Shown here piece by piece: positions 2,372-20,670 of a stretch of 64,000 bases of DNA. The notes beneath the pieces were generated by a model. The model was not told the DNA's origin and ran no database searches. It saw only the letters and a program-made list of their open reading frames with translations. Position 1 is the stretch's first letter, and every line of letters begins with the position of its first letter. This DNA is from Hyphomicrobium sp. (lineage in GTDB: Bacteria > Pseudomonadota > Alphaproteobacteria > Rhizobiales > Hyphomicrobiaceae). The stretch spans positions 1 through 64,000 of the forward strand of contig PERT01000007.1 in assembly GCA_002928955.1 (NCBI GenBank), given 5' to 3'. Made by a program: the position numbers and the translations under genes.

Positions 2372-3721
2372 ATGTCGACCGGCCCGCAGAACATAGGCAG
2401 CGCAAGGCAGATGGCAGCGGCTGATCCATCCCACGGCACCCAGCGGGTGGCTGCGGGCAGCATCGATATCTCGCCGCAGCCGCCCATCGCAGTCGGCGTC
2501 GTAGGGCGACGCGCCACGCACCTTGACGGTGCGTTGGAGGCCAACGTCATTCTGGTCGATGGCCATGACGGCCAGCCGGTCGTACTGGTGCAGATCGACA
2601 CGCTGTTTGTGGACGCCCATTCGACCCAGTCCCTGGCGAGATACGCAGGTATGGACCCTGGCCGCATGGTTCTGCTTGCGAGCCACACCCATTCCGCGCC
2701 CATGCTGACGGACCAGTTGTGTCCTACGGCGCAGTATGCTCCCGAGCGCAGAGCCGCGGTCGAGGTTCGTATCGGGGAATTGATTTCGCAACTTGTCAAT
2801 GCCCAGCGGCGCCAGTGCGCGACGCGGTTTGGCACCGTTGAGACACCAGTCAACATCAATCGCCGCTCCGTCGGGTACTTCATGGATCTTAGGGCGGCGA
2901 GGAAGGGATCGCTGCGGCTGAGACGTCGATGCGTCATGCAGCCGGATCCGTACGGTCCGGTCGATCGACTGCTGCGAGCATTACGCTTCGACGACGAGAG
3001 CGGCCACCCTGTCGCCGTGATATGGGGCTTTGCGGCGCATCCGTCACGCCAGCCGGACCGTTTAAGCGTATCGCCGGACTTCCCTGGGCGGGTTCGCGAG
3101 CGGCTCCGGGCGCGGCTGGGTTCACATGTTGCGGTCCTGTATGTGCCTGGGCTCGCCGGCAGCACGGTTCCGCTCGTTCCCTTCGCCTTCCCGCGCGGCG
3201 TGGGTGCCCTGTTGCGCTGGATGCTGCCGTTTTTGCCCTACTCGCATGCCTTCACGACCCAAAGCTTTTCGGCGTGGTGCAACCAACTTTCGAGCGCCGC
3301 CGAACAAGCCGTGACGTCGTCAAGGCCCGTCGCGCTTGCCCCCCCACGCATCGTGAGCGGCCGCTCCAAGAAGATCTTCGTGGGGCCGGGTACCGGCGCG
3401 GGGGTCGAGTTGGAATTGCGCAGCGTCGCATTCGGGCCGGAATTGGTCTTGGCTGCGACGAGTGGCGAAATGCTCGTCGAGTGGCTCGATGTCATACCGA
3501 AGCGGTTACTCGAAAATGTCTGGCTGACAGGGTATCTGGCGGGCCGGCCGACGTATCTGCCGACGGCGGCCGTCATCGCAGAAGGGGGCTACGAGGCAGA
3601 GGGTTTCCTAGCACCGTTCGGCATGAGCGGCGCGTTCGTGCCGGACATCGAGGCGACGGTCATTGCGGCACTGTCAGAGGTGATTGGCGACAGCATGAGC
3701 GGATCCCCGTCAGGGGATTGA
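2372..3721 (+). CDS. Neutral/alkaline ceramidase-like protein
   Basis: A 449-aa protein resembling the catalytic N-terminal region of neutral/alkaline non-lysosomal ceramidases. The clearest signature is the metal-binding SHTHSAP at residues 104-110, followed by NINRRS (about 165) and an AAHP motif (about 215). The C-terminal immunoglobulin-like domain of full ceramidases is not evident, and I see no classical signal peptide. It is co-directional with fcl (42 nt spacing) and the following membrane-protein gene. A role as an amidohydrolase on an acyl or acetamido group of a sugar or lipid is inference. Family membership is fairly secure; the substrate is unknown. Confidence 0.7.
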   Translation: MSTGPQNIGSARQMAAADPSHGTQRVAAGSIDISPQPPIAVGVVGRRATHLDGALEANVILVDGHDGQPVVLVQIDTLFVDAHSTQSLARYAGMDPGRMVLLASHTHSAPMLTDQLCPTAQYAPERRAAVEVRIGELISQLVNAQRRQCATRFGTVETPVNINRRSVGYFMDLRAARKGSLRLRRRCVMQPDPYGPVDRLLRALRFDDESGHPVAVIWGFAAHPSRQPDRLSVSPDFPGRVRERLRARLGSHVAVLYVPGLAGSTVPLVPFAFPRGVGALLRWMLPFLPYSHAFTTQSFSAWCNQLSSAAEQAVTSSRPVALAPPRIVSGRSKKIFVGPGTGAGVELELRSVAFGPELVLAATSGEMLVEWLDVIPKRLLENVWLTGYLAGRPTYLPTAAVIAEGGYEAEGFLAPFGMSGAFVPDIEATVIAALSEVIGDSMSGSPSGD

Positions 3722-3776
3722 CGCGCTTGAAGCGCCGCACGCCTGCCGCTTGTCCGGTCAGCTCGATTGGGTCAAC

Positions 3777-4886
3777 ATGATGCCGGCCAGTATGATCCAT
3801 ATTCCAAGCCAATATCGTGCGCTCAAGGGCTCCGCCAGCACGACGTGGGCGAGCAGTGGCACGAGCGCCGCGCCGGCCAGCCTGTTCCGGCACGGCGTTG
3901 TCTTGCTCCTCGTCGGCTTCGCACTGGCCACGGCCGCGCGTCACCGCAAATTGTTCGGCGCGCCGCTGTTCGCCGCTGCTCTGGTGACGATGGCCTCACT
4001 CTATTGGTTTGCGATTGCGCGAGCCTCGATCACGGGCGAATTCATCGCGCCGCGTCCGGGATTGAGCGGCCTTTACTTCGCGCCACGCGTCAATCTGGCA
4101 CCCTCCGCCGATGTGCGGCGCCTGATCGCCGAGGCCGACTGGCCTTCGGGCTTGACGAGCGAGACGATCCTCGCTGGTAAGACGGAATACGCCCAGTTCG
4201 AGGACGCGGCGCGGCGATGGCGCAGCCAGGGTATGTCGAACGCGCAGGTACTCGACCGCTTCGAAGCGCTCGGCAAGCGTGTACGCCACGACGGCGCCGC
4301 GACGGAAGCCAGGGCGGTGGCGCACGGGACCGTCGCCGCCGGAATTGATGTGCCGTGCTTCATGGCCGGCGCGGGGGAGGATTTCACTCGTGGAATGACG
4401 AACGCTCAAGCCTGCGAAGTCAACAGGGCGTGGACGAAGGTGTTCGCCTGGGTCGCGGTCGATCGCAAGCTGGTGACACAGCTCTTCGAGGCGTCGTTCA
4501 GGGACACCGCCGTTCCCGGCTTGCAGGCATTCGAGCGCGCGTGGATGCGTTGGTTCAAGGAAGCGCCGCGGATGCTGCGTGATCCGCTTGGCCTCGGGCG
4601 GATCGACCTGTCGGCGCTGACCATAGCGTTTCTTGTCGCGGCCATTGTGGTTGTCCGTCGCGATCTGGTCCTCGGTTTGTGCCTCATCGGTCTGCCAGCG
4701 GTGACGATCTACCTGCACGCGCTCGTGCCGTTCGCCGGAACCCGCTATGTCTACCCGCTGATGCCGATCTATGCGCTGTCGATCCCGCTGGCCATCGCGA
4801 TGCGGCGCGCGATCGCCCCGTCTCCGTTGGTCGCCGGTCTGGCGCAGTTGATACGTCAGAACGTGCTGCGGAGGTCGCCGTCCTGA
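3777..4886 (+). CDS. Membrane protein, possibly C-terminal part of a GT-C glycosyltransferase
   Basis: About 369 aa from the ATG at 3777; a TTG at 3750 is an alternative start. Two hydrophobic stretches lie near residues 45-90, a soluble loop of about 170 residues follows, and further helices near 285-350 include a GTRYVYPLMPIYA segment. That last motif resembles the RY.YP loop near the end of GT39/GT-C membrane glycosyltransferases. The usual N-terminal DE motif and the full set of helices are missing, so it may be a truncated glycosyltransferase or a separate small membrane protein. It follows the ceramidase-like gene and converges on rfbG, whose stop codon is only 10 nt away. Confidence 0.5.
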   Translation: MMPASMIHIPSQYRALKGSASTTWASSGTSAAPASLFRHGVVLLLVGFALATAARHRKLFGAPLFAAALVTMASLYWFAIARASITGEFIAPRPGLSGLYFAPRVNLAPSADVRRLIAEADWPSGLTSETILAGKTEYAQFEDAARRWRSQGMSNAQVLDRFEALGKRVRHDGAATEARAVAHGTVAAGIDVPCFMAGAGEDFTRGMTNAQACEVNRAWTKVFAWVAVDRKLVTQLFEASFRDTAVPGLQAFERAWMRWFKEAPRMLRDPLGLGRIDLSALTIAFLVAAIVVVRRDLVLGLCLIGLPAVTIYLHALVPFAGTRYVYPLMPIYALSIPLAIAMRRAIAPSPLVAGLAQLIRQNVLRRSPS

Positions 4887-8142: not shown

Positions 8143-8649
8143 ATGAAACGGTTGGCCTTCGTCGGTCTTCTACTGCTCCTGGCGCTGACCTCTGCATTCG
8201 TTACCAACACCTTTCTACTGGTCGAGGACACGCGGCTCAATTTGGCGCTGGAAAAGGCGGCAACGATGAGTTCGCTCAACGGGAGTGAGGCATCGGTCGG
8301 AACCGACGGGAACGCGAATGGCGGTTCGAATTTCTTCCATACCGGCATTGAGGATCAGCCGTGGTGGCAGGTCGATCTCGGCGCAGTGCATCAGGTTTCG
8401 GGCTTCGAAATCCACAACAGATCAGACTGCTGCATGGAGCGCGCGGATTCCTTGACCGTGCAGCTCTCCACGGACGGCAAGACCTGGACCAAGGTCTATA
8501 GTCATGACAAGAAGCCTTTCGGCAGCGAGACGTCGCAGATCCCGCCGCTCAAGATCAACACGAAATCGGCCCCTGCGCGATTTGTTCGCATAAAACTCGC
8601 GGAGCGAAACTACCTGCATCTGTCGGAGGTGCGGGTTCTGGGCGAATAG
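8143..8649 (+). CDS. Exported discoidin (F5/8 type C) domain protein
   Basis: A 168-aa protein with an N-terminal signal sequence or anchor (hydrophobic residues 4-25) and then a single discoidin/CBM32-like domain starting with NLALEKAATMSS. Landmarks are QPWWQVDLGAVHQVSGFEIHN near residues 70-90 and FVRIKLAERNYLHLSEVRVLG at the end, both typical of the fold. Such domains bind carbohydrate at the cell surface, so it may bind the glycan made by this locus. It stands alone on the plus strand between the minus-strand FkbM and DUF2793 genes. Confidence 0.8.
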   Translation: MKRLAFVGLLLLLALTSAFVTNTFLLVEDTRLNLALEKAATMSSLNGSEASVGTDGNANGGSNFFHTGIEDQPWWQVDLGAVHQVSGFEIHNRSDCCMERADSLTVQLSTDGKTWTKVYSHDKKPFGSETSQIPPLKINTKSAPARFVRIKLAERNYLHLSEVRVLGE

Positions 8650-8671: not shown

Positions 8672-10180
8672 TTACAGCTCCGCGCTCGCTGTCCAGCCGC
8701 CTACAACGGCGATTGCCGCACCCGCTGCAAATGAGCCACCCATCTGCGGCACGAATCCGGTCTCCGAAACACCGGGGACCGACATCGAGGTTGTGCTGAC
8801 CCACCCTCCGGCAAGGTACTCCCATTGCCCCGCGACTGTGCCGAGATTCGTGCGATAAAACGCGATGGTCGGCACGTCACGCATGCGCGTTGGGAAATTG
8901 ACGAATGGGCCATAGGCGACATCTGAGGCTAGCCCGCCGCCGATACCGTAAGCGGTATCCCTATTGTAGGAGACACCGTCTGCCGGCGCGATACCCGCGC
9001 GCATCGATTTGGAAAAGTACCGCTGGCAGAGATCAACCTCGACGGCGCTCGGCCGCGCCTGCCAGTCCGTCGCCGCAGCCCCGACTTCGAGCTTCACGCG
9101 CTTCCACCACGTTGGATAGCTCGTGGGCGTCAGCGTCACGTTGAGGTTGCCGGTATCGCCCGCGCCGAGCGTCAGCGTGAGAGAGCGCCGCCCGCTGCCC
9201 GGCGTGATCGCGCCCGAGGCTGACCCGACCGCCACGATCAAGTTGCCGCCGGTCAGCCCCTCGACCGAGACCGTAACCTGTTGCGATGCGAGGCTGGCAT
9301 AGCCCCACGCCGTGACCTCGACAACTTGCCGGATCGCGCCCGCGTTGAGCGTCAGTGTTTGCGTTGCCGCGTTCCAGCCGATGTTGCTCGCGCCCGCAGC
9401 CCTCCAGCGATCGACGCCATAGACACCATCTGCCAGCGCGCCGAACGCGAAGCCGCGCTGATTAATGCCGAAATCGCCGTTGACGAGCAAATTCGGCTTG
9501 TCTCCGAGCGGCGTGAACGGGAACGACACGACGCCGCTTGCGCGGTCTATCCGCATCGCCTCTTTCCACGACGAACCGTCCGGCGACACCTTGACATTGT
9601 AGTCGTCGTCGCCGGTCAGCCCAAACTCCGCGCGGCCGGAAAAGCCGGTTTGGAACAGCACCGACGCCGTGTCGCCGGCCGTAGCCTTGTTGATCTTCTG
9701 CTGATGGCCACCGCCGTCGTGATTGAACAGCGAGGCGGGCGACGAGACCGACAGCCGGTTGGTCGCGTCCGCCGTCGCGTTGATGCCGACGAGAGCGCCG
9801 GATGCGGGGTTGAGCAATGTTGAACCGCTACCGTCACCGCCACCGACGCCGACCCACATCGTGCCGTTCCATAGGACGAGTGCGTTCTCGTCGGCGACCC
9901 ATGCGAGCCATCCCGCGCGGGGCGTATGGATCGCCCAGGCACCATCCTCGAAGGCAGCGATCTTGCCCTCGTGCCCGGCCCAAGAACCAGTGGCGGCGGC
10001 TGCGACAATGAAGCGCTGGCCGGGAGCCGGCGACAGCGGTGGCGCGGCCAAATCGCGATCGGCTACAGAAAGCTGGACGATCGAATCGAGGGTTCTTATT
10101 GCTTCGTTGTGCGTGACGTGTTTTTGCGCCTGAGCGGCGCTGATGTACGGCAGCCCCAGGTTGTGTGACGTCTCGCTCAT
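8672..10180 (-). CDS. DUF2793 phage-type structural protein
   Basis: A 502-aa protein whose first 110 residues match the DUF2793 pattern (LPYISAAQAQKHVTHNEAI at 10-28; W-rich AGWLAWVADENALVLWNGTMW near 92-112). A repetitive, glycine/alanine/threonine-rich beta-type region follows, with a carbohydrate-binding-like segment NLLVNGDFGINQRGF near 230. DUF2793 proteins are normally found in prophages and gene-transfer-agent-like tail modules, but no phage gene surrounds it. It may be an isolated tail-fibre remnant or a recruited surface or adhesin protein. Expression is unproven; the reading frame is fully open. Confidence 0.75.
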   Translation of the reverse strand: MSETSHNLGLPYISAAQAQKHVTHNEAIRTLDSIVQLSVADRDLAAPPLSPAPGQRFIVAAAATGSWAGHEGKIAAFEDGAWAIHTPRAGWLAWVADENALVLWNGTMWVGVGGGDGSGSTLLNPASGALVGINATADATNRLSVSSPASLFNHDGGGHQQKINKATAGDTASVLFQTGFSGRAEFGLTGDDDYNVKVSPDGSSWKEAMRIDRASGVVSFPFTPLGDKPNLLVNGDFGINQRGFAFGALADGVYGVDRWRAAGASNIGWNAATQTLTLNAGAIRQVVEVTAWGYASLASQQVTVSVEGLTGGNLIVAVGSASGAITPGSGRRSLTLTLGAGDTGNLNVTLTPTSYPTWWKRVKLEVGAAATDWQARPSAVEVDLCQRYFSKSMRAGIAPADGVSYNRDTAYGIGGGLASDVAYGPFVNFPTRMRDVPTIAFYRTNLGTVAGQWEYLAGGWVSTTSMSVPGVSETGFVPQMGGSFAAGAAIAVVGGWTASAEL

Positions 10181-10550: not shown

Positions 10551-11693
10551 ATGACCAAGCGGGCCTATCAGATCTGCTCACGCTGCATCATGGATACGAC
10601 TGATCCGAACATCACGTTCGACGGGCGGGGACGTTGTGACTACTGCCACAACTTCGACGAGTCTATCAAGCCGAGCTGGCGAACCGATGAGCGCGGCGAA
10701 CGCGAGCTCTTGGAAATTGCGGCGAAAATCAAGAAGGCCGGCGAGGGCAAGGACTTCGATTGCATCATTGGCTTGAGCGGTGGACTCGATAGCTCCTTCG
10801 TCACCTACATCGCGAAGGAGAAGATGGGACTGCGACCTTTGCTGTTTCATGTCGACGGCGGTTGGAACACGGATCAGGCTGTCAGTAACATCGAGCGGCT
10901 CGTAGATGGGCTCGGTCTCGATCTCTTCACCGAGGTGATCGACTGGGAGGAAATGCGCGACTTCCAGCTTGCTTGCCTCAAGGCCCAGATCGCCGACCAG
11001 GATTTGCCGCAGGACACCGCGTTCTTCTCGACGCTCTATAAATTCGCGCGCAAGCACAACATCAAGCACATCATCACCGGCTCCAACTATTCGACCGAGT
11101 GCTGTCGCGAGCCGGAGGAGTGGGGGGCCTATCCCGGCATCGACCGAACACTGATCATGGACATTCATGCGAAACACGGCACTATCCCGTGGAAGACGTT
11201 CCCGATTGTCGACGTCTTCACTTACAAAATCTATTACAAGTACGTTCTTGGGATGGAGGTCGTGAAGCCTCTCAATCTCGTGCCTTACATCAAGTCGGAA
11301 GCCGAGACGCTGTTGGGGGAAAAGTTCGGCTGGCAGAAATTCCAGCACAAACACCACGAGTCGCGCTTTACGAGATTTTACGAGGACTACTGGATGCCGC
11401 GCAAGTTCGGCTACGAGAAACGCCGCGCGCATTTTTCGAGCCTCATCATGACCGGCCAAATGACTCGTGATCAGGCGCTCGAACGCATTTCCAAGCCGGA
11501 AATGGACGAGCATTTCCTCGAGCGCGAGTTCGAGTATGTCGCCAATAAATTGTCGATTTCCGTCGACGAACTCCGCGCGCTCTTCGATGGACCCAACAAG
11601 ACCTTCAACGATTACAAGAACAAGCGTTACTGGATCGGCGTCGGATCGAGCGTGATGCGCCGGTTCGGTCTGGAAAAGCGGCTGTTCCGCTGA
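10551..11693 (+). CDS. N-acetyl sugar amidotransferase (WbpG/WbuX/LfnA family)
   Basis: A 380-aa ATP-pyrophosphatase-type enzyme that turns a sugar N-acetyl group into an acetamidino group, using ammonia delivered by HisH/HisF-like partners. A zinc-finger-like CxxC pair is at Cys9/Cys12 and Cys29/Cys32, and the PP-loop SGGLDS at residues 76-81. The partners lie in this window at 15793-17186. Because they occur beside fnlABC (UDP-L-FucNAc) and a WbuB-like transferase, the closest known analogue is the L-FucNAm module of E. coli O145 (wbuX) and P. aeruginosa O12 (lfnA). No pseudaminic, legionaminic or ManNAc3NAcA genes are present. Family is secure; substrate is inference. Confidence 0.85.
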   Translation: MTKRAYQICSRCIMDTTDPNITFDGRGRCDYCHNFDESIKPSWRTDERGERELLEIAAKIKKAGEGKDFDCIIGLSGGLDSSFVTYIAKEKMGLRPLLFHVDGGWNTDQAVSNIERLVDGLGLDLFTEVIDWEEMRDFQLACLKAQIADQDLPQDTAFFSTLYKFARKHNIKHIITGSNYSTECCREPEEWGAYPGIDRTLIMDIHAKHGTIPWKTFPIVDVFTYKIYYKYVLGMEVVKPLNLVPYIKSEAETLLGEKFGWQKFQHKHHESRFTRFYEDYWMPRKFGYEKRRAHFSSLIMTGQMTRDQALERISKPEMDEHFLEREFEYVANKLSISVDELRALFDGPNKTFNDYKNKRYWIGVGSSVMRRFGLEKRLFR

Positions 11694-11729: not shown

Positions 11730-12962
11730 GTGAAAACGTTGGCCAAGCGCATTCTCCTCATGACACAATGGTTCGACCCCGAGCCGACGTTCAAGGGGCT
11801 CGTCTTTGCAAAAGCATTGGCGAAGCAAGGGTTCGAGGTCGAGGTTGTCACCGGATTTCCCAACTATCCGGGCGGCAAGCTCTATCCGGGCTACCGTCTC
11901 CGGTGGCGGCACAAGGAAATAATCGACGGCATCGCCGTTACGCGGTTGTTTCTCTATCCGAGTCATGACCGGTCGGTGTTACGCCGCGCTTGCAACTACC
12001 TGAGCTTTTTCACATCGCTCGTGCTCTACGGTGTTTTCAGCGCGCGTCAGGCCGATGTCATCTATGCCTATCATCCACCGCTGACCACGGGGCTCGCCGC
12101 GGCACTGATCAAGCTTGTGCGGCGCACGCCGCTGATCATTGATATTCAGGATCTCTGGCCCGACACGCTCCGCGCGACCGGCATGATTTCCAACGCACGG
12201 GCGCTCGGGCTCATCGGTGCGTTCTGCGACTGGATGTACCGGCGCTGCGATCACATCGTGGTGTTGTCGCCGGGCTTCAAGAAGGCAATCACGGCGCGGG
12301 CGATTGCCGACGGGAAGATCGAGGTGATCTACAATTGGGCTGACGAGGCGGCGTTGCTCAAGCCTGCGGGCGATGTCCCGACAGGGTTCGCGAAGGACAA
12401 GTTCAAGGTTCTGTTCGCCGGCAACATGGGGGCGGCGCAGGCGCTCGACAGCGTGATAGAGGCCGCCGCGCTGATCCGCGATACCGCACACCACGTGCAG
12501 TTCCTGTTCATCGGTGGCGGCATGGACGTCGAGCGACTGAAGGCCGTGGCCCATGACAGGCAGCTGTCCAATGTCGGATTTTTACCCCCAGTTCCGATGT
12601 CCGAAATTGGCTCGCGCCTTGCTGCGGCGGACGCGCTGCTCGTGCATCTGAAGCGCGATCCGTTGTTCGAGATCACGATTCCGTCGAAGACGCAGGCGTA
12701 CATGGCCGCCGGCAGGCCGATCATCATGGGTGTGACCGGGGATGCGGCCGACCTCGTGGTCAAAGCCGATTGCGGCGTTCTGGTGGAGCCCGAAAACGCG
12801 CAAGCAATCGCGGAAGCGGTCGTGGCATTGAGCCATACTCCGCTAGACCGCCTGGCCGTGATGGCCGCCAATGGCCGGCGCTTCTATTTCGATCAGATAT
12901 CGTGCGAGGCGGCGACAGCCAAATTTGCGCGGTTGTTCGATACTCTGTCCACGCGCACCTGA
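11730..12962 (+). CDS. WbuB-like family 4 glycosyltransferase
   Basis: About 410 aa; retaining GT-B fold. The N-terminus LLMTQWFDPEPTFKG and VTGFPNYPGGKLYPGY are characteristic of the WbuB-type family, which transfers L-FucNAc/L-FucNAm in O-antigen synthesis. The C-terminal half has EVIYNWADE near 200 and an E-x7-E-like region EPENAQAIAE near 353. The gene is 36 nt after the amidotransferase, so it is probably co-transcribed and may transfer the amidinated sugar. The start is either the GTG at 11730 or the TTG at 11739; a GAGGTG sequence is well placed for the latter. Confidence 0.8.
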   Translation: MKTLAKRILLMTQWFDPEPTFKGLVFAKALAKQGFEVEVVTGFPNYPGGKLYPGYRLRWRHKEIIDGIAVTRLFLYPSHDRSVLRRACNYLSFFTSLVLYGVFSARQADVIYAYHPPLTTGLAAALIKLVRRTPLIIDIQDLWPDTLRATGMISNARALGLIGAFCDWMYRRCDHIVVLSPGFKKAITARAIADGKIEVIYNWADEAALLKPAGDVPTGFAKDKFKVLFAGNMGAAQALDSVIEAAALIRDTAHHVQFLFIGGGMDVERLKAVAHDRQLSNVGFLPPVPMSEIGSRLAAADALLVHLKRDPLFEITIPSKTQAYMAAGRPIIMGVTGDAADLVVKADCGVLVEPENAQAIAEAVVALSHTPLDRLAVMAANGRRFYFDQISCEAATAKFARLFDTLSTRT

Positions 12963-12997
12963 ACCGGACGTGCTCTCTACCGGGCTGGAAGCAAGGG

Positions 12998-14194
12998 TCA
13001 GCGTGTCTCGGCGCCGGCCGCGACGTCCGCCAGCACGTCGCAGGTGCGGTCGATCTCCGCCTCCGTCAGCGTCGGATGTACCAGGAACATGATGCTGGTC
13101 TCGCCCAGGCGTACACTCGTCGCGAGAGGAGCCGCGGGGCGCCAGGGTGTGGCGTCGAATGCCTTCTCGCGATAGACCTCGGAACAGGATCCGGTGTAGC
13201 AGGGCACGCCGCGCGCATTGATTTCGGCCACGATGCGGTCGCGCGTCCAGCCGGGTGCCAGGCGTTCGGGTCGGACGTAGATGTAGCTGCGATAGGCAGC
13301 ATGTTGGCCGTCAGCCGGCAACTCGGGGACCGAGAACAGCCGGAACCGTCGCGCGGCTTGCCAAATGCGCTCGCAGTTGGCGCGGCGGCGGCGCGACCAG
13401 TGGTCCATCCGACGCAACTGGATACGCCCGATGGCCGCCTGCACCTCGAGCATGCGCCAGTTGGTGCCGAAGCTTTCGTGCAGCCAGCGAAACCCCGGCG
13501 GATGCTGGCGCTTGTAGACGGCATCGAAGCTCTTGCCGTGATCCTTGAAAGACCACATCCGCGACCATAACCCGGGATCGCTGGTCGTAACCATGCCACC
13601 CTCGCCGCCGGTCGACATGATCTTGTCCTGGCAAAACGACCATGCGCCAACGTGGCCGATGGAGCCGACCGAGCGGCCCTTGTAGCGCGCGCCGTGGGCC
13701 TGCGCGCAGTCCTCGATCACCTTGAGGCCGCACCGGTCAGCGAGGCGCATGATCGGGTCCATGTCACACGGCCAGCCGCCGAGGTGCACGGGGATCACGG
13801 CTTTCGCGTGCGGGCCGACTACCGCGGCGATCGTCTCGGCCGAGATGTTGCCGCTCGCCGGATCGACGTCGGCGAACACCGGGACGGCACCCGCAGTGAC
13901 TACGCACGAGATCGACGCGATGAACGAGCGCGGCGTGACGACCACCTCATCGGTCGCTGAGCCACCGTTGACCGCGCCGATGCCGAGGCCGTGCAGGGCG
14001 AGATCGAGCGCCACTGTGCCGTTGGCCAATGCGATGGCGTGCGGCACGCCGGTCCATTCGGCGAACTCGCGCTCGAACGCGCGTCCCTCCTCGCCGGTCC
14101 AGTAGTTGACGCGGTTCGATCGTACGACGCGCGCGACAGCCTCCGCTTCCTCGTCGGTAAAGGACGGCCAGGGCGAGAAGGGTGTGTTGAGCAT
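12998..14194 (-). CDS. DegT/DnrJ/EryC1/StrS (PglE-like) sugar aminotransferase
   Basis: A PLP-dependent sugar aminotransferase of 398 aa. The PLP lysine is Lys191 in SFCQDKIMSTGGEGG, and EDCAQAHGA (161-169) and the early SNRVNYWTGEEGRAFE region fit the family. It starts 7 nt upstream of a PglD-like acetyltransferase gene that is upstream of it on the same strand, so the pair should make a 4-amino then 4-acetamido sugar from the 4-keto product of the WbpM/PglF-like dehydratase at 31825. UDP-diNAcBac is one candidate product. Perosamine-type chemistry from the Gmd product is the main alternative. Confidence 0.88.
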   Translation of the reverse strand: MLNTPFSPWPSFTDEEAEAVARVVRSNRVNYWTGEEGRAFEREFAEWTGVPHAIALANGTVALDLALHGLGIGAVNGGSATDEVVVTPRSFIASISCVVTAGAVPVFADVDPASGNISAETIAAVVGPHAKAVIPVHLGGWPCDMDPIMRLADRCGLKVIEDCAQAHGARYKGRSVGSIGHVGAWSFCQDKIMSTGGEGGMVTTSDPGLWSRMWSFKDHGKSFDAVYKRQHPPGFRWLHESFGTNWRMLEVQAAIGRIQLRRMDHWSRRRRANCERIWQAARRFRLFSVPELPADGQHAAYRSYIYVRPERLAPGWTRDRIVAEINARGVPCYTGSCSEVYREKAFDATPWRPAAPLATSVRLGETSIMFLVHPTLTEAEIDRTCDVLADVAAGAETR

Positions 14195-14863: not shown

Positions 14864-15508
14864 TCAACGTCCTTCGGAGTTGCCGGTGAACGGCGGCATT
14901 GTGGCGTCGCCGGCGGCGCTGATGCCGTCGCGCATGACCACCTTGAACACGGTCATGATCAGGATCTTCAGGTCGAGCATCATGCTTTGGTTGTCCACAT
15001 ACCAGACGTCGTAATCGAACTTCTGCCCCCAGCTGAGTGCGTTGCGGCCGTTGACCTGAGCCCACCCCGTGATGCCGGGCGGCACCTCGTGGCGCCGCAT
15101 CTGGTGCGCGTCGTAGAGCGGCAGGTAGTCCATCAGCAGCGGACGCGGCCCGACGAGGCTCATCTCGCCTCGCAGCACGTTCCACAGTTCAGGCAATTCG
15201 TCCAGGCTGCTCGATCGCAGAAACCGGCCGAACCTGGTCAAACGTTGCGCGTCAGGCAGCCGCGGCTCGCCTGGCCGGGGTTCGAGCATGCTGCGGAACT
15301 TGATCATGCGGAAGGGACGGCCGGCAAGGCCGGGGCGGACCTGCGTGAACAAAATCGGCGCGCCGAGATTGATGCGCACCAAGAGAGCTATGAGCGCGGC
15401 CACAGGAAGCACGACCGGCAGGCTGGCAGTGACGGTCAGCACGTCGAACGTCCGCTTCCACGGTGAGAGTCGTGTTGGCATGTCGGCCGTGACCCCGCGC
15501 TCAGACAT
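14864..15508 (-). CDS. PglC/WcaJ-type undecaprenyl-phosphate phosphoglycosyl transferase
   Basis: About 214 aa, the compact monotopic form. A hydrophobic re-entrant helix lies near 22-45, followed by the family signature FRMIKFRSM (about 66-74), SLDELPELWNVLRGEMSLVG and PGITGWAQVNGRN. It transfers a sugar-phosphate from UDP-sugar to undecaprenyl phosphate and so starts repeat-unit assembly. The neighbouring aminotransferase and acetyltransferase suggest that the first sugar is a 2,4-diacetamido-trideoxyhexose. I prefer the ATG at 15508; ATG 15481 is also possible, and the open frame runs to 15568. Confidence 0.9.
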   Translation of the reverse strand: MSERGVTADMPTRLSPWKRTFDVLTVTASLPVVLPVAALIALLVRINLGAPILFTQVRPGLAGRPFRMIKFRSMLEPRPGEPRLPDAQRLTRFGRFLRSSSLDELPELWNVLRGEMSLVGPRPLLMDYLPLYDAHQMRRHEVPPGITGWAQVNGRNALSWGQKFDYDVWYVDNQSMMLDLKILIMTVFKVVMRDGISAAGDATMPPFTGNSEGR

Positions 15509-15792
15509 GGCAATGCCTGCGAATCTGCCTTGCCGGACCGTGCCGCCTCCCGGACAGCCGCCCACCACCCGCCATGGAATGGCCGCCGACGAATATGGCG
15601 CCGGTACGGTCGCAGACCTCGGAGAGCGGCAGGTGATCGAGTTCGACAGACATGGATGGCAGGACCTTCGGTTGCGGCTGGCTTGCGCGACGGCGACGCT
15701 AAACGCAGACGGACACGGTACTGGAAATTGTGACGTCGCTCACGCGGTTCGGCAAGCCTTCGATAAGCGGACCGCCGCGATCCCGCATTGTA

Positions 15793-16563
15793 CTATCCGG
15801 CAGCGGCGAACACCTCGTTCTTGCGGCTCTCGGGGGGGTAGTTGATCAGCACCGCCCTCAACGAACCCTTGAACACGAACATGCTGCCCGCCGCGGCACC
15901 GATGACGCCGCAGGCGGAAATCAACTCGCGGACATGATCGAGCGTACCGGCCCCGCCGAGCACGCTGATGGGCACATCGATACTGTCCTTCAAACGGCGG
16001 GCGAGGGGCACATCATAGCCCTTCATGACGCCGTCGCGGTCGATCGAGTTGACGACGATCTCGCCGGCACCGACTTTGGCGAGTTCACGCGCGAACGCGA
16101 CGGGCTCGCGGCCAGTGGCCTTCCTGCCGTTGTGCGTGAAGACTTCGTAGGCACCACCGGCGGTCTGCCGGACGTCGAGCACCACGACGCAACTCTGGCG
16201 GCCGACCTCATCGGCGATGCGCGGGATGAGATCCGGCTGCTCGATTGCGGCAGAACTGACGGCGACTTTCTCGACTCCGAGCCGTACCAGTTGCTTGGCT
16301 TGCGCAGCCGTCTTGACGCCGCCTCCATAGCAAAGCGGCATGCGGCACTCGTTCGCGAGGTGGGCGATCATCTTGTAGTTGGGTTCGCGACCCTCTGCGG
16401 TCGCGTCGATGTCGAGGACGATCAGCTCGTCGGCTTCCTTCTCGTTGAAGATCTTCACCGCGTTGATCGGATCGCCAACGTACTTGTAATCCGTGAAACG
16501 CAGGGATTTCACTAGGCCGTTGTTGTGGATGAGCAGACAGGGGATGATTCGAGGCCGCAGCAT
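15793..16563 (-). CDS. HisF-like (AglZ/HisF2) acetamidino-modification protein
   Basis: A 256-aa TIM barrel closely resembling HisF, the cyclase/ammonia-lyase subunit. The residue matching the essential first catalytic aspartate of true HisF (the D in IIPCLDV) is replaced here: residues 6-13 read IIPCLLIH. The second aspartate in VVVLDV is retained. This is the pattern of HisF paralogues that only channel ammonia to a sugar amidotransferase, so it should not be called a histidine gene. It starts 5 nt beyond the stop of the HisH-like gene upstream and presumably serves the amidotransferase at 10551. WbuZ is the analogue in E. coli O145. Confidence 0.85.
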   Translation of the reverse strand: MLRPRIIPCLLIHNNGLVKSLRFTDYKYVGDPINAVKIFNEKEADELIVLDIDATAEGREPNYKMIAHLANECRMPLCYGGGVKTAAQAKQLVRLGVEKVAVSSAAIEQPDLIPRIADEVGRQSCVVVLDVRQTAGGAYEVFTHNGRKATGREPVAFARELAKVGAGEIVVNSIDRDGVMKGYDVPLARRLKDSIDVPISVLGGAGTLDHVRELISACGVIGAAAGSMFVFKGSLRAVLINYPPESRKNEVFAAAG

Positions 16564-16568
16564 TGTGG

Positions 16569-17186
16569 TCAGACCTCAGAGAATGTCTTGAGCAGGCCAG
16601 CGCCGAAGCGGTGGCTCTTCTCGGGATGGAACTGGACACCGTAGATGTTCCCGGAGCGGACGATGCAGGCGAACGAGATGCCGTAGTCGGCGGTTCCTGC
16701 CACATGCTCGGCGTTGGCGCACTCGAAGTAGAACGAGTGGAGAAAATAGAACCGCGCATCGTTCTCGAACCCTTTGAGAAGGGACGGTCCATTCTTGGGT
16801 CTGACGTCGTTCCAACCCATGTGCGGTAGCGGCAGCTTCGCATTGTGCGGCAACACATCCCGCAGCGCTCGTACCCGGCCGGGGATCCATCCGAGTCCTT
16901 CTCGAACGCCTTCGTCGCTGCCGTTGGCGAGAATCTGCATGCCGACGCAAACGCCCAGCACGGGTACCTTCCGAACTGTGACCAATTCCTCGATCCGCGG
17001 ACGCATTCCGGACGCGTCGAGAAGATCCATCGCATGATCGAAGGCACCGACGCCAGGCAGGATGATCCGCTCCGCACCATCGAGATCGGCCGCAGCATGG
17101 GCAATCTTGATCTTGATGCCGATCCGCCTGCAGAGGTTGACGAAAGCCAGGACGTTACCGAGGCCGTAATCGATGATCGTTATCAT
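16569..17186 (-). CDS. hisH: HisH-like glutamine amidotransferase subunit
   Basis: A 205-aa class-I glutaminase starting at the ATG at 17186 (MITIIDYG), the family's standard start. The nucleophile Cys80 lies in LGVCVGMQ, and the His-Glu pair is in GVQFHPEKS near the C-terminus. It releases ammonia from glutamine for its HisF-like partner, 5 nt downstream. Neighbourhood and the missing HisF aspartate place it in sugar amidination (WbuY-type), not histidine synthesis. The glutaminase triad is intact. Confidence 0.87.
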   Translation of the reverse strand: MITIIDYGLGNVLAFVNLCRRIGIKIKIAHAAADLDGAERIILPGVGAFDHAMDLLDASGMRPRIEELVTVRKVPVLGVCVGMQILANGSDEGVREGLGWIPGRVRALRDVLPHNAKLPLPHMGWNDVRPKNGPSLLKGFENDARFYFLHSFYFECANAEHVAGTADYGISFACIVRSGNIYGVQFHPEKSHRFGAGLLKTFSEV

Positions 17187-17381
17187 GGGGTGGCCAGAAC
17201 CCTCGTTAGTGCTGCCGGGTGCCATCGAGCCTGCCGAAACCAGGTCCTGGCATCGATACTCACAACTTGATGCCGTTGTCTCAATGACCTAGCGGCGTTC
17301 CGTCACCGAGTACAGGCGCAGAACGCTGCTGGACAAGGGAATCCGCGGGGGCTGGTGCGCGGGCGTCTCCCTCGCGGGTTT

Positions 17382-18515
17382 TCAATCGTAACGTCGCCAC
17401 ACGACCCGCTGCACGTAATCTGTGTAGCTGACCATGATTCGCAGGATCTTGTCCGAGACGTTGGGCATCCCGTAGTCGCCGACGAGCCGCATCCCTCGAT
17501 CGGCGCCGCGAGGTTGCCTGGCCAGGATAGCAAGTCCCTGCCTTACGCGATCGAGAGACAGGCCGACCATCATGACAGCGGCTTCTTCCATGGCTTCCGG
17601 CCGCTCATGCGCCTCACGAATATTGAGTGCTGGAAAGTTCAGGATCGACGCTTCCTCGCTGATCGTCCCGCTGTCGGAGAGGACACAGCGGGCGGCGGTC
17701 TGGAGGTGGACGTAATCAAAAAAGCCGAGCGGTTTCATCAGCCGCACCAGGGGGTCGAAGGCGATGCCCGCGGCAGAGATCCGCTTTTGCGTCCGCGGAT
17801 GTGTGGAGACGACGACCGGCAAGCCATGATCGGCTGCAACGCCGTTGAGTATCGCGACAAGGCGCCGGAAGTTGCGCTCCGGCTCGATGTTCTCTTCGCG
17901 GTGCGCGCTGACGAGGAAATAGCCCTCGCTCTCGAGGCCAAGGCGAACCAGAACATCGGATTTCTCGATACCCGGGCGATAGTGCGTCAACACCTCGAAC
18001 ATCGGGCTGCCGGTCTTGATGACCAGTTCCGGAGACAAGCCTTCGCGCAGCAGGTACTCGCGCGCGATATCGCTGTAGGTCAGATTGACGTCGGCAGTGT
18101 GATCTACGATGCGTCGGTTGATCTCCTCGGGTACGCGTTGGTCGAAACAGCGATTGCCAGCTTCCATGTGAAACACGGGAATCTGGCGGCGTTTCGCGGG
18201 CAGCACGGAAAGGCAACTGTTGGTGTCGCCCAGTATCAGCAGCGCCTCCGGTTGGATATCGGCAAGAACGCCGTCAACTCGGGCGATCACGTTGGCGATG
18301 GTGGTTGCGGCGTTGGCGGCCGCGCTGTCGAGGAAGAAGTCAGGCTTGTGCACGCCGAGGTCGTCGAAAAACACCTCGTTGAGTTCGTAGTCATAGTTCT
18401 GGCCGGTGTGGATCAGCGTGTGCTGGCAGTGCTCATCGAGCCGTGCAAGGACACGGGAAAGGCGGATGATTTCGGGCCGCGTACCGACCACCGTTGCGAC
18501 CTTAAGCAGCTTCAC
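17382..18515 (-). CDS. fnlC: UDP-L-FucNAc synthase (C2-epimerase; FnlC/CapG/WbjD)
   Basis: A 377-aa non-hydrolysing UDP-GlcNAc 2-epimerase family protein. Motifs are HTGQNYDYELNEVFF (about 36-50), LGDTNSCLSVLPAKR, HMEAGNRCFDQRVPEEINRR and SAHREEN. As the third enzyme of the FnlA-FnlB-FnlC route it inverts C2 of UDP-2-acetamido-2,6-dideoxy-L-talose to give UDP-L-FucNAc. Its start overlaps the end of fnlB by 4 nt. ManNAc formation by a WecB-type enzyme is an alternative, but the neighbours argue for FnlC. Confidence 0.9.
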   Translation of the reverse strand: MKLLKVATVVGTRPEIIRLSRVLARLDEHCQHTLIHTGQNYDYELNEVFFDDLGVHKPDFFLDSAAANAATTIANVIARVDGVLADIQPEALLILGDTNSCLSVLPAKRRQIPVFHMEAGNRCFDQRVPEEINRRIVDHTADVNLTYSDIAREYLLREGLSPELVIKTGSPMFEVLTHYRPGIEKSDVLVRLGLESEGYFLVSAHREENIEPERNFRRLVAILNGVAADHGLPVVVSTHPRTQKRISAAGIAFDPLVRLMKPLGFFDYVHLQTAARCVLSDSGTISEEASILNFPALNIREAHERPEAMEEAAVMMVGLSLDRVRQGLAILARQPRGADRGMRLVGDYGMPNVSDKILRIMVSYTDYVQRVVWRRYD

Positions 18516-19633
18516 GCGTCCACCTTTTGCGCTATCGTGTCGGGTAAGTCGCGGTTGAAAATTTCATTGGCCCACAGCATGACGATCAATTCATCCGTGC
18601 CGGCATTGGTGACGGAATGCACCCAGCCGGGCACCGTCTCAACGATGCGGCCCTCGCCCCCGCGGGTGACGATCTGATGGCACTCGCCAGTGACGATATG
18701 GCGAAATCCGAAGCGCGCCGTGCCTTGCAGAACGAGGAACTTCTCGGTCTTCGAGTGATGATAGTGCTCGCCACGTGTCACGCCCGGATGCGCTGTAAAG
18801 TAAGAGAACTGTCCGCTGTCGCTGGTCTTCAGCATTTCGACGAACTCGCCGCGCTGATCGGAATGGCGCGGCACGTCGTAGACGAACTGCTGCGGCTTGA
18901 GAAAACTCAGGTAGGTCGCATTGAGCGCCCGCACCAGGCCCGAGCCGGCGCGCGGCATGAGCAATGTGGTGCGGCTCGCGGCGATCGAGCGGATGATGTC
19001 GACGACCTCGCCAACGCTCGTGTCGTAGACCGGCTCCACCGCGCGCAGGCCCGCGTCCTTTGCTGGCGATTCCAGCAAGTCAATAAACGTCGAGACGACA
19101 TCGTCGACGTAGATAAGCCGCAACGGCGCCGCCGGATCGTGGATTGTCGGCGTCTCGCCGGCTGCGATCTGAGAACAAAATGTCGCAACCGCAGAATTGT
19201 AGTTCGGCCGCGACCATTTTCCGAAAACGTTGGTAAGCCTGAAGATGTGCGCCGGTGCACCGCTGCGGCTGGCATAGGATTCGACCGCTGCCTCTGCGGC
19301 GCGCTTGGAGCGGCCGTACGGATTGTCTTTCGAGGCTTGTGTCGATGACGTGTAGACGATAGGCGCCTTGCGGCCGGCGGCAACGAGCCGTTCGCAGATA
19401 GCCTGCGTCAATCCTGCATTACCAGTGTCGAACTCGTCGTCGGTCTTCGGGCGGTTGACGCCGGCGAGATGAAACACGAAGTCGGCATCCCGACACTCAG
19501 CGTCGAGATCGGCTGTCGTGGCGGTGCGCGTCAGGCGTGCGACATCGGTGATGCCATTTTCGGCAAGCCGCACGCGCAGGTTCGTGCCGATGAAACCATC
19601 GCTGCCTGTGATCAGGATGCGCATGTCTCTCAC
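18512..19633 (-). CDS. fnlB: UDP-2-acetamido-2,6-dideoxy-L-hexulose reductase (FnlB/CapF/WbjC)
   Basis: A 373-aa two-domain protein. Residues 1-240 are a short-chain reductase (LITGSDGFIGTNL near 6-18; YGRSKRAAEA near 106). Residues from about 245 form a cupin domain with RGEHYHHSKTEKFLVLQGTA. This fusion is diagnostic of CapF/WbjC/FnlB, in which the cupin epimerises C3 and the SDR reduces C4. It overlaps fnlA and fnlC by 4 nt each, so the three steps are translationally coupled. Confidence 0.93.
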   Translation of the reverse strand: MRDMRILITGSDGFIGTNLRVRLAENGITDVARLTRTATTADLDAECRDADFVFHLAGVNRPKTDDEFDTGNAGLTQAICERLVAAGRKAPIVYTSSTQASKDNPYGRSKRAAEAAVESYASRSGAPAHIFRLTNVFGKWSRPNYNSAVATFCSQIAAGETPTIHDPAAPLRLIYVDDVVSTFIDLLESPAKDAGLRAVEPVYDTSVGEVVDIIRSIAASRTTLLMPRAGSGLVRALNATYLSFLKPQQFVYDVPRHSDQRGEFVEMLKTSDSGQFSYFTAHPGVTRGEHYHHSKTEKFLVLQGTARFGFRHIVTGECHQIVTRGGEGRIVETVPGWVHSVTNAGTDELIVMLWANEIFNRDLPDTIAQKVDA

Positions 19634-20670
19634 GCCTCGAAATCGAAGTCGGCATGCTCGCCGCGAATCAAACGCCGCATCGGCTCAATCTTCAACAGGA
19701 TATTCTTTGTACCTTCGAGGTCGAGCCGCAGGGTGTTGTGCGAGTTATAGTCCTCAGCGCGGTTGATGCGCTGTTCGCCCCGGTCTACGTACACCGTGTA
19801 GTTGAGATCGCGCGCATCCGGCGGCACGCGATAGTATTGGCCCCGGTCTTCCGCGCACGACATTTCCTCGCGGCTCAGCAGGGCCTCGTAGAGTTTTTCT
19901 CCATGTCGCGTTCCGATTTCCTCGATCGGATGGGTCGGGCGCCCCATCAATTCGACGATCGCCCGCGCCAGTGTGCCGATCGACGTGGCGGGTGCCTTCT
20001 GCACGAAGATGTCGCCGTTGACGCCGTGGTTGAAGGCGTAGAGAACGAGCGACACGGCATCATCGAGCGTCATCATGAAGCGCGTCATCGCCGGGTCGGT
20101 CACGGTGATCGGCGCGCCGCGAAGGACCTGCGCGACGAACAATGGAATGACCGAGCCGCGAGAGCCCATGACGTTGCCATAGCGCGTGCCAGTGATCACG
20201 GTTCCCGTGCCCTCGAGGTTGCGCGACATGGCAACCATAACCTTTTCCATCATCGCCTTCGAAACACCCATGGCGTTGATAGGATAGACTGCTTTATCGG
20301 TCGAAAGGCAGACGATACGCTTGACGCCCTGGTCGATGGCGGCGGAGAGAACATTTTCTGTGCCGAGGATATTCGTGCGCACGGCCTCCATAGGGTGGAA
20401 TTCGCACGATGGCACTTGCTTGAGTGCTGCGGCGTGAAAAAGATAATCGACGCCACGCAGCATTCCTTCCACGCTTCGGGCCTCGCGGACGTCGCCAAGG
20501 TAGAAGCGCAGCTTGGCGCTCGCGTACCTTTTTCGCATGTCGTCCTGCTTTTTCTCGTCGCGGCTGAAGATGCGAATCTCTGCCAGATCCGAGTTGATTG
20601 CCTGGCGCACGAGAGCGTTGCCAAACGACCCCGTTCCGCCAGAAATTGCCAGTATTCGTCCCGAGAACAT
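19630..20670 (-). CDS. fnlA: UDP-GlcNAc 4,6-dehydratase/5-epimerase (FnlA/CapE/WbjB)
   Basis: A 346-aa SDR making the 4-keto-6-deoxy-L-arabino intermediate from UDP-GlcNAc. The nucleotide motif ISGGTGSFGNAL is near residues 9-20, STDKAVYPINAMGVSKAMMEK holds the catalytic region (Met-x-x-x-Lys replaces the usual Tyr-x-x-x-Lys, as known for this subgroup), and HAAALKQVPSCEFHP is the UDP-GlcNAc dehydratase signature. It is the first gene of the fnlA-fnlB-fnlC run, followed at a 195-nt gap by the hisH-like gene. Confidence 0.93.
   Translation of the reverse strand: MFSGRILAISGGTGSFGNALVRQAINSDLAEIRIFSRDEKKQDDMRKRYASAKLRFYLGDVREARSVEGMLRGVDYLFHAAALKQVPSCEFHPMEAVRTNILGTENVLSAAIDQGVKRIVCLSTDKAVYPINAMGVSKAMMEKVMVAMSRNLEGTGTVITGTRYGNVMGSRGSVIPLFVAQVLRGAPITVTDPAMTRFMMTLDDAVSLVLYAFNHGVNGDIFVQKAPATSIGTLARAIVELMGRPTHPIEEIGTRHGEKLYEALLSREEMSCAEDRGQYYRVPPDARDLNYTVYVDRGEQRINRAEDYNSHNTLRLDLEGTKNILLKIEPMRRLIRGEHADFDFEA

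Follow-up and report, generated by a model that had tools for sequence, protein, structure and literature searches.

The closest described relatives of the protein studied here are the neutral/alkaline ceramidases of Pfam family PF04734, represented by the Pseudomonas aeruginosa enzyme (2zws) and human ASAH2 (4wgk), for which the setting is sphingolipids. An excerpt of PMC5150637 likens the P. aeruginosa ceramidase to a zinc carboxypeptidase in its mode of action, and part of a review (PMC6952831) describes certain His, Arg (Arg257) and Tyr residues as critical in human neutral ceramidase. Other systems that bear on this work belong to the biosynthesis of surface glycans. In E. coli O145, WbuX is linked to the conversion of L-FucNAc to L-FucNAm in an excerpt of PMC10607449. 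An excerpt of PMC8003790 lists a gene of the PF02522 type (aminoglycoside 3-N-acetyltransferase, AAC(3)) in the P. gingivalis K-antigen operon, and also names both LpxC and LpxD.

A ceramidase-like gene downstream of gmd and fcl

The window, i.e. the whole stretch of 64,000 nucleotides of Hyphomicrobium sp. that was analysed, opens with the first nucleotide of its contig (PERT01000007.1), so that the locus is visible only from there on. Three genes follow one another on the forward strand: gmd (GDP-mannose 4,6-dehydratase, 271 to 1344, TIGR01472), fcl (GDP-L-fucose synthase, 1382 to 2329, NF047922), both above curated cut-offs, and an ORF at 2372 to 3721 whose ATG lies 42 bases past the fcl stop codon. 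From the ORF itself, profile searches, coding bias and an AF2 model, the product of 449 amino acids is described as a ceramidase-fold putative zinc amidase. Coding statistics and bias favour the ORF as a genuine gene, and its product is the sole match to the pattern [ST]H[TS]HS[AG]P among the 382 window ORFs of at least 60 amino acids that were scanned. The original prediction of a gene directly after fcl, with the ceramidase-type metal motif SHTHSAP and no obvious export signal, is borne out. The motif occupies residues 104–110 (2681 to 2701, forward strand) and aligns to 2zws; the N-terminus is not signal-like by a simple rule of our own, and no clear transmembrane segment was found. The next gene (3750 to 4886, forward strand) encodes a protein of 378 amino acids, taken as a membrane protein from its hydrophobic segments, with no Pfam or NCBIfam match. 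It has a TTG start and, besides itself, one weak relative in 120 related genomes, and it may be a 5'-truncated gene.

Family membership and fold

Searched as a single protein, the product of 2372–3721 has no match in Pfam or NCBIfam at an E value of 0.01 and none among PDB sequences at an E value of 1. PF04734 does not match it up to an E value of 10, and its gathering cut-off is passed by no protein in the window's genome. A profile built from ten homologues, seven of which match PF04734, retrieves P. aeruginosa neutral ceramidase 2zws with an E value of 4.4e-29 and human 4wgk with an E value of 3.4e-23. The AF2 model of the protein, with 30 sequences as input, has a mean pLDDT of 90.4 and aligns to 2zws (VIA-align) with Z 34.8 and rmsd 3.2 over 378 residues, spanning chain residues 3–494. 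The match to 4wgk has Z 32.7, and the best unrelated fold only Z 4.5. The C-terminal Ig-like domain of ceramidases is absent, as the protein stops at the position aligned to residue 494 of the 646 of 2zws. A protein of Terrestrivirus (BFVD A0A3G4ZNP7) also matches the model, at an E value of 1e-17.

Phylogeny and distribution

A search of genome contigs with the single protein recovered no relative; from a search of the same kind of contigs with subclade alignments, the best 80 of 116 relatives were used. A careful tree built from 27 rows places 17 sequences on one side of a branch supported at 99/96; these are referred to as the focal branch. The window's clade of seven (Azospirillum, Arenibaculum, Noviherbaspirillum) has support of 100/99 in the same tree. 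In a quick tree of 83 rows the focal 17 receive only 83 SH-aLRT. Internal placements are unsure, because several rows have long branches. By our simple rule, signal-like N-termini occur in none of the 17 focal rows, compared with 45 of the 66 other rows. Mostly from Planctomycetota and Verrucomicrobiota, often with signal peptides and near sulfatases, the outer relatives (L041 to L110) suggest a secreted catabolic branch.

The single protein matches 9 of 385 genomes of the class at an E value of 0.001. Within the taxonomic family, three of 103 genomes have a match: the window's own, one with a truncated copy and one with a weak partial match. A second survey of the class, with the focal profile, brought in just one further genome, the distant G199. 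In the records examined, members of the protein family carry the label of a ceramidase-domain or a hypothetical protein.

Active-site residues

In the alignment to 2zws, H105 and H107 match the two His of the ceramidase motif THTHSGP, in that order (all positions in this section are on the forward strand). H105, H223 (3038 to 3040), E366 (3467 to 3469) and Y395 (3554 to 3556) fall on 2zws chain positions 97, 204 (His), 411 (Glu) and 448 (Tyr) in the HMMER alignment, which we take to be the zinc ligands His, His, Glu and Tyr of the P. aeruginosa enzyme; H223 would thus be the equivalent of the second zinc His. H107, R164 of an NRR motif (2861 to 2863), Y395 and Y407 of a GGYE motif (3590 to 3592) align with the catalytic His, Arg and two Tyr of human ASAH2 by way of the 2zws and 4wgk chains, R164 with Arg257 and Y407 as the likely equivalent of Tyr591. 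Residues H105, H107, P110, R164, H223, E366 and Y395 are invariant across the alignment of 83 rows, and the position of Y407 carries Tyr in 17 of 17 focal rows and 62 of the 66 others.

One loop, S264-T265-V266 (3161 to 3169), is altered. The ceramidase motif serine (position of human Ser354) is V266 here, and V or I in all seven rows of the core branch. Residue 264, an Asp in the family, is Ser in seven of seven rows of the window's clade and Asp in the remaining ten of ten focal rows.

The protein is a divergent relative of the neutral ceramidases that keeps their fold and their metal-binding and catalytic residues. It resembles the PF04734 enzymes 2zws and 4wgk in the fold of the catalytic domain, the zinc ligands and the catalytic Arg and Tyr, but differs in having no signal peptide, no C-terminal domain and no motif Ser, and in lying below PF04734 detection. 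It also differs in its setting among polysaccharide genes, as opposed to the sphingolipids of neutral ceramidases.

Gene neighbourhoods of the focal branch

Of 119 listed neighbour proteins at 13 focal loci, 107 were scanned against Pfam (the 12 left out include short and doubtful ones), which gave GT1 glycosyltransferases (10), flippases (8), Asn-synthase-type proteins (5), Gfo/Idh (4) and Wzy (4). Among 110 neighbours at 15 outer loci, which are our own pick from those with long flanks, GT1 and flippases each occur at most once and sulfatases are top with seven. Comparison of 15 focal and 60 outer loci with our own HMMs, whose seeds come partly from focal loci and so bias the result toward focal counts, a bias of which the Pfam scans are free, gave the same contrast for GT4 (10 of 15 versus 3 of 60), sulfatases (0 of 15 versus 18 of 60) and flippases within 10 kb (10 of 15 versus 0 of 60). 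Nine of these ten flippase loci were found by HMM, and L013 was added to them, since its annotated flippase adjoins the gene and a mis-set gene start hid it from the HMM. Focal members L035 and L037 were left out of the 15-locus count as their flanks are too short. In L013, L034, L103, L019, L040, L036 and L067 a flippase gene borders the ceramidase-like gene directly. Of the 15 focal loci, 13 have polysaccharide genes, counted as flippase, GT4, Wzy or Asn-synthase type; the two without them are L031, which is a phage contig, and L038, where the gene lies next to a tRNA-Val. A surface-polysaccharide role is well supported.

Two proteins without a Pfam match (L013:11048–11809 and 12818–13390) recur near the gene in the Azospirillaceae loci L013, L032, L033 and L103.

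The sugar-locus setting that was originally proposed therefore stands as far as polysaccharide neighbours are concerned, but its link to GDP-fucose does not: gmd and fcl are near no other focal locus, and no other among 95 locus records has both. The setting, which had been put forward as a new context for the family, is shared within a branch and not peculiar to this gene. Searches of open-licence PMC papers turned up no account of polysaccharide loci with a ceramidase-type gene.

An overlapping acyltransferase gene

In five of the 17 focal members the ceramidase-like gene overlaps a PF02522 gene, which lies downstream in L090, L111 and L033 and upstream in L037 and L038, the last two being close relatives that count nearly as one. 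The overlap is of four bases in L090, L038 and L037 and longer in L111 and L033. Because both gene orders occur and the genes overlap, the two are likely to be functionally coupled. A PF02522 gene is also present about 4–5 kb away in L067 and L036, and in L040 a GNAT gene is directly upstream of the ceramidase-like gene. No PF02522 partner was found at non-focal loci among 95 locus records, and the overlap requires four changes on the tree. The overlapping PF02522 gene is a common, not a defining, trait of the branch; the likeness to AAC(3)-type N-acetyltransferases resides in this partner and not in the ceramidase-like gene itself. No partner acyltransferase adjoins the ceramidase-like gene of the window, and a PF02522 acyltransferase of the partner type is absent from its genome.

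The polysaccharide region of the window

Further into the window are a WbuX-type N-acetyl sugar amidotransferase (10551 to 11693, forward strand, TIGR03573 above cut-off) and, on the reverse strand, an initiating sugar-phosphate transferase (Bac_transf, 14864 to 15568, PF02397) and a set at 15793 to 20670 that comprises the WbuX partners HisF and HisH together with what are presumably FnlA/B/C-like proteins (PF00977, PF00117, PF02350, PF14667, PF02719). The locus also encodes Wzy-like and ligase-like proteins, glycosyltransferases and a short protein in which Pfam finds an F5/8 type C domain (8143 to 8649, forward strand). The window's own polysaccharide region thus contains the WbuX/HisH/HisF acetamidino-sugar system with an FnlA/B/C-like set, and by analogy with that system the N-acetyl groups of amino sugars are probably modified in its pathway, which makes an N-deacylase plausible there. 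The WbuX system modifies the N-acetyl group, while the role proposed here for the ceramidase-fold enzyme would be to remove it. WbuX is near just one other focal locus, L036.

Proposed function and alternatives

We propose, with moderate confidence, that the protein is a cytosolic zinc amidohydrolase with a ceramidase catalytic domain that N-deacylates an amino-sugar intermediate in the synthesis of a surface polysaccharide. An N-deacylase of this kind is the most economical reading, in which both activity and substrate are inferred, and it keeps the N-acylated sugar of the original prediction as the most likely kind of substrate. Weighing against it are the lack of a partner-type acyltransferase in the window's genome, the truncated copy and weak constraint seen in the comparison with G002 (below), and the two focal loci devoid of polysaccharide genes. 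A ceramidase-type catalytic domain would have been recruited into surface-polysaccharide synthesis, where it would hydrolyse an N-acyl, probably N-acetyl, group on a nucleotide-linked or lipid-linked amino-sugar intermediate at the inner membrane face, ahead of flipping. Zinc-bound water would attack the amide carbonyl with the assistance of Arg164 and Tyr395/Tyr407, and the freed amine could stay free or be re-acylated by a partner acyltransferase.

More tentatively, the branch could encode a two-enzyme acyl-exchange cassette, in which a deacylase of ceramidase fold and an N-acyltransferase of AAC(3) fold, the two being translationally coupled, swap the N-acyl group of the amino sugar before flipping. 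The core branch would then use the altered active-site loop (GSxxP), and the window's version would be a partner-less one beside an acetamidino-sugar pathway. If such exchange takes place it would be similar to the LpxC/LpxD step of lipid A synthesis, in which an N-acetyl amino sugar is deacylated and a new acyl group is added. LpxC and LpxD differ from the ceramidase-fold enzyme in fold and locus, and the likeness is one of analogy, with no claim of homology.

The alternative that survives best places the enzyme in the same pathway, but acting on another bond of the glycan, such as a uronamide, an amino-acid amide, a lactone or an O-acyl ester. It is possible, if rather unlikely. The Asn_synthase-type amidotransferases, which make up 5 of the 107 neighbours and by our own HMMs, with their bias toward focal counts, are near 4 of 15 focal and 1 of 60 outer loci, are consistent with it, as is the altered active-site loop of the core branch (S264 for D, V/I266); however, the partner gene that repeatedly overlaps encodes an N-acyltransferase and so points to an N-acyl bond, and the catalytic residues fit an amidase.

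A second alternative, which we regard as improbable, is that the gene is a decaying or functionless passenger from horizontal transfer. The scarcity of matches within the taxonomic family and the long branch in the trees are in its favour, as is a comparison within the genus. Among three other genus genomes examined, fcl is present in only one (G002), 97% identical to that of the window. Here gmd and fcl are intact, while the ceramidase-like gene breaks off after about 96 codons, its remnant (L012, about 3000–3363) being joined to a WbuX-like start. Judged from the assembled sequence this copy is broken, unless an incomplete assembly is at fault, and a deletion in G002 is likely because in the window both genes are present on one strand with about 7 kb between them. 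The first 95 codons, compared between the window and G002, give dN 0.062 and dS 0.077 (dN/dS about 0.8); the corresponding values are 0.019 and 0.223 in fcl, and 0.005 and 0.145 in gmd. At least one copy is therefore under weak constraint or has lost it. Against a passenger, the window's gene has 449 intact codons with good coding bias, a confident fold and all catalytic residues. As G002 keeps gmd and fcl with a truncated ceramidase-like gene, the gene is, if the assembly is right, not needed for GDP-fucose. Absence of the gene from related loci with the same glycan had been named in advance as evidence against the original prediction; what is found, fcl with a truncated copy, cuts against necessity.

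It is quite improbable that the gene is a phage-spread surface-modification gene, altering the glycan receptor against superinfection and later captured by polysaccharide loci. L031 is a virus contig, on which the gene (L031:2619–3893) is alone on the strand opposite the tail genes, and within the window's polysaccharide locus there is a DUF2793 protein, tail-fibre-like by its matches to PHROG (8672 to 10180, reverse strand; Pfam, PHROG). Nevertheless, this is the one virus contig only, there are no matches in 50,697 phage records, and most members of the branch sit in polysaccharide loci.

That the protein is in truth a ceramidase or an N-acyl-lipid amidase, placed in a sugar locus by chance, is very improbable, for in spite of the neutral-ceramidase fold and zinc-site residues there is no signal peptide, C-terminal domain or motif Ser, the neighbours across the branch are polysaccharide genes and not the sphingolipid genes that would have spoken against the original prediction, and of seven class I/II aminotransferase genes detected in the window's genome none passes the serine palmitoyltransferase model above its cut-off, so that a sphingolipid link is rejected.

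Implications

The fitting annotation should be ceramidase-fold hydrolase of surface-polysaccharide loci, and not ceramidase. A glycan-acting branch, if true, would correct the ceramidase and hypothetical annotations that family members currently carry. If the acyl-exchange reading is true, the glycan concerned would be an O-antigen or exopolysaccharide and the cassette would be a previously unrecognised one. N-deacylation by the ceramidase-fold enzyme would, if true, represent a new way in which bacteria tailor the N-acyl groups of their O-antigens and exopolysaccharides, and would provide a testable enzyme pair, the products of which would bear on phage reception and serotype.
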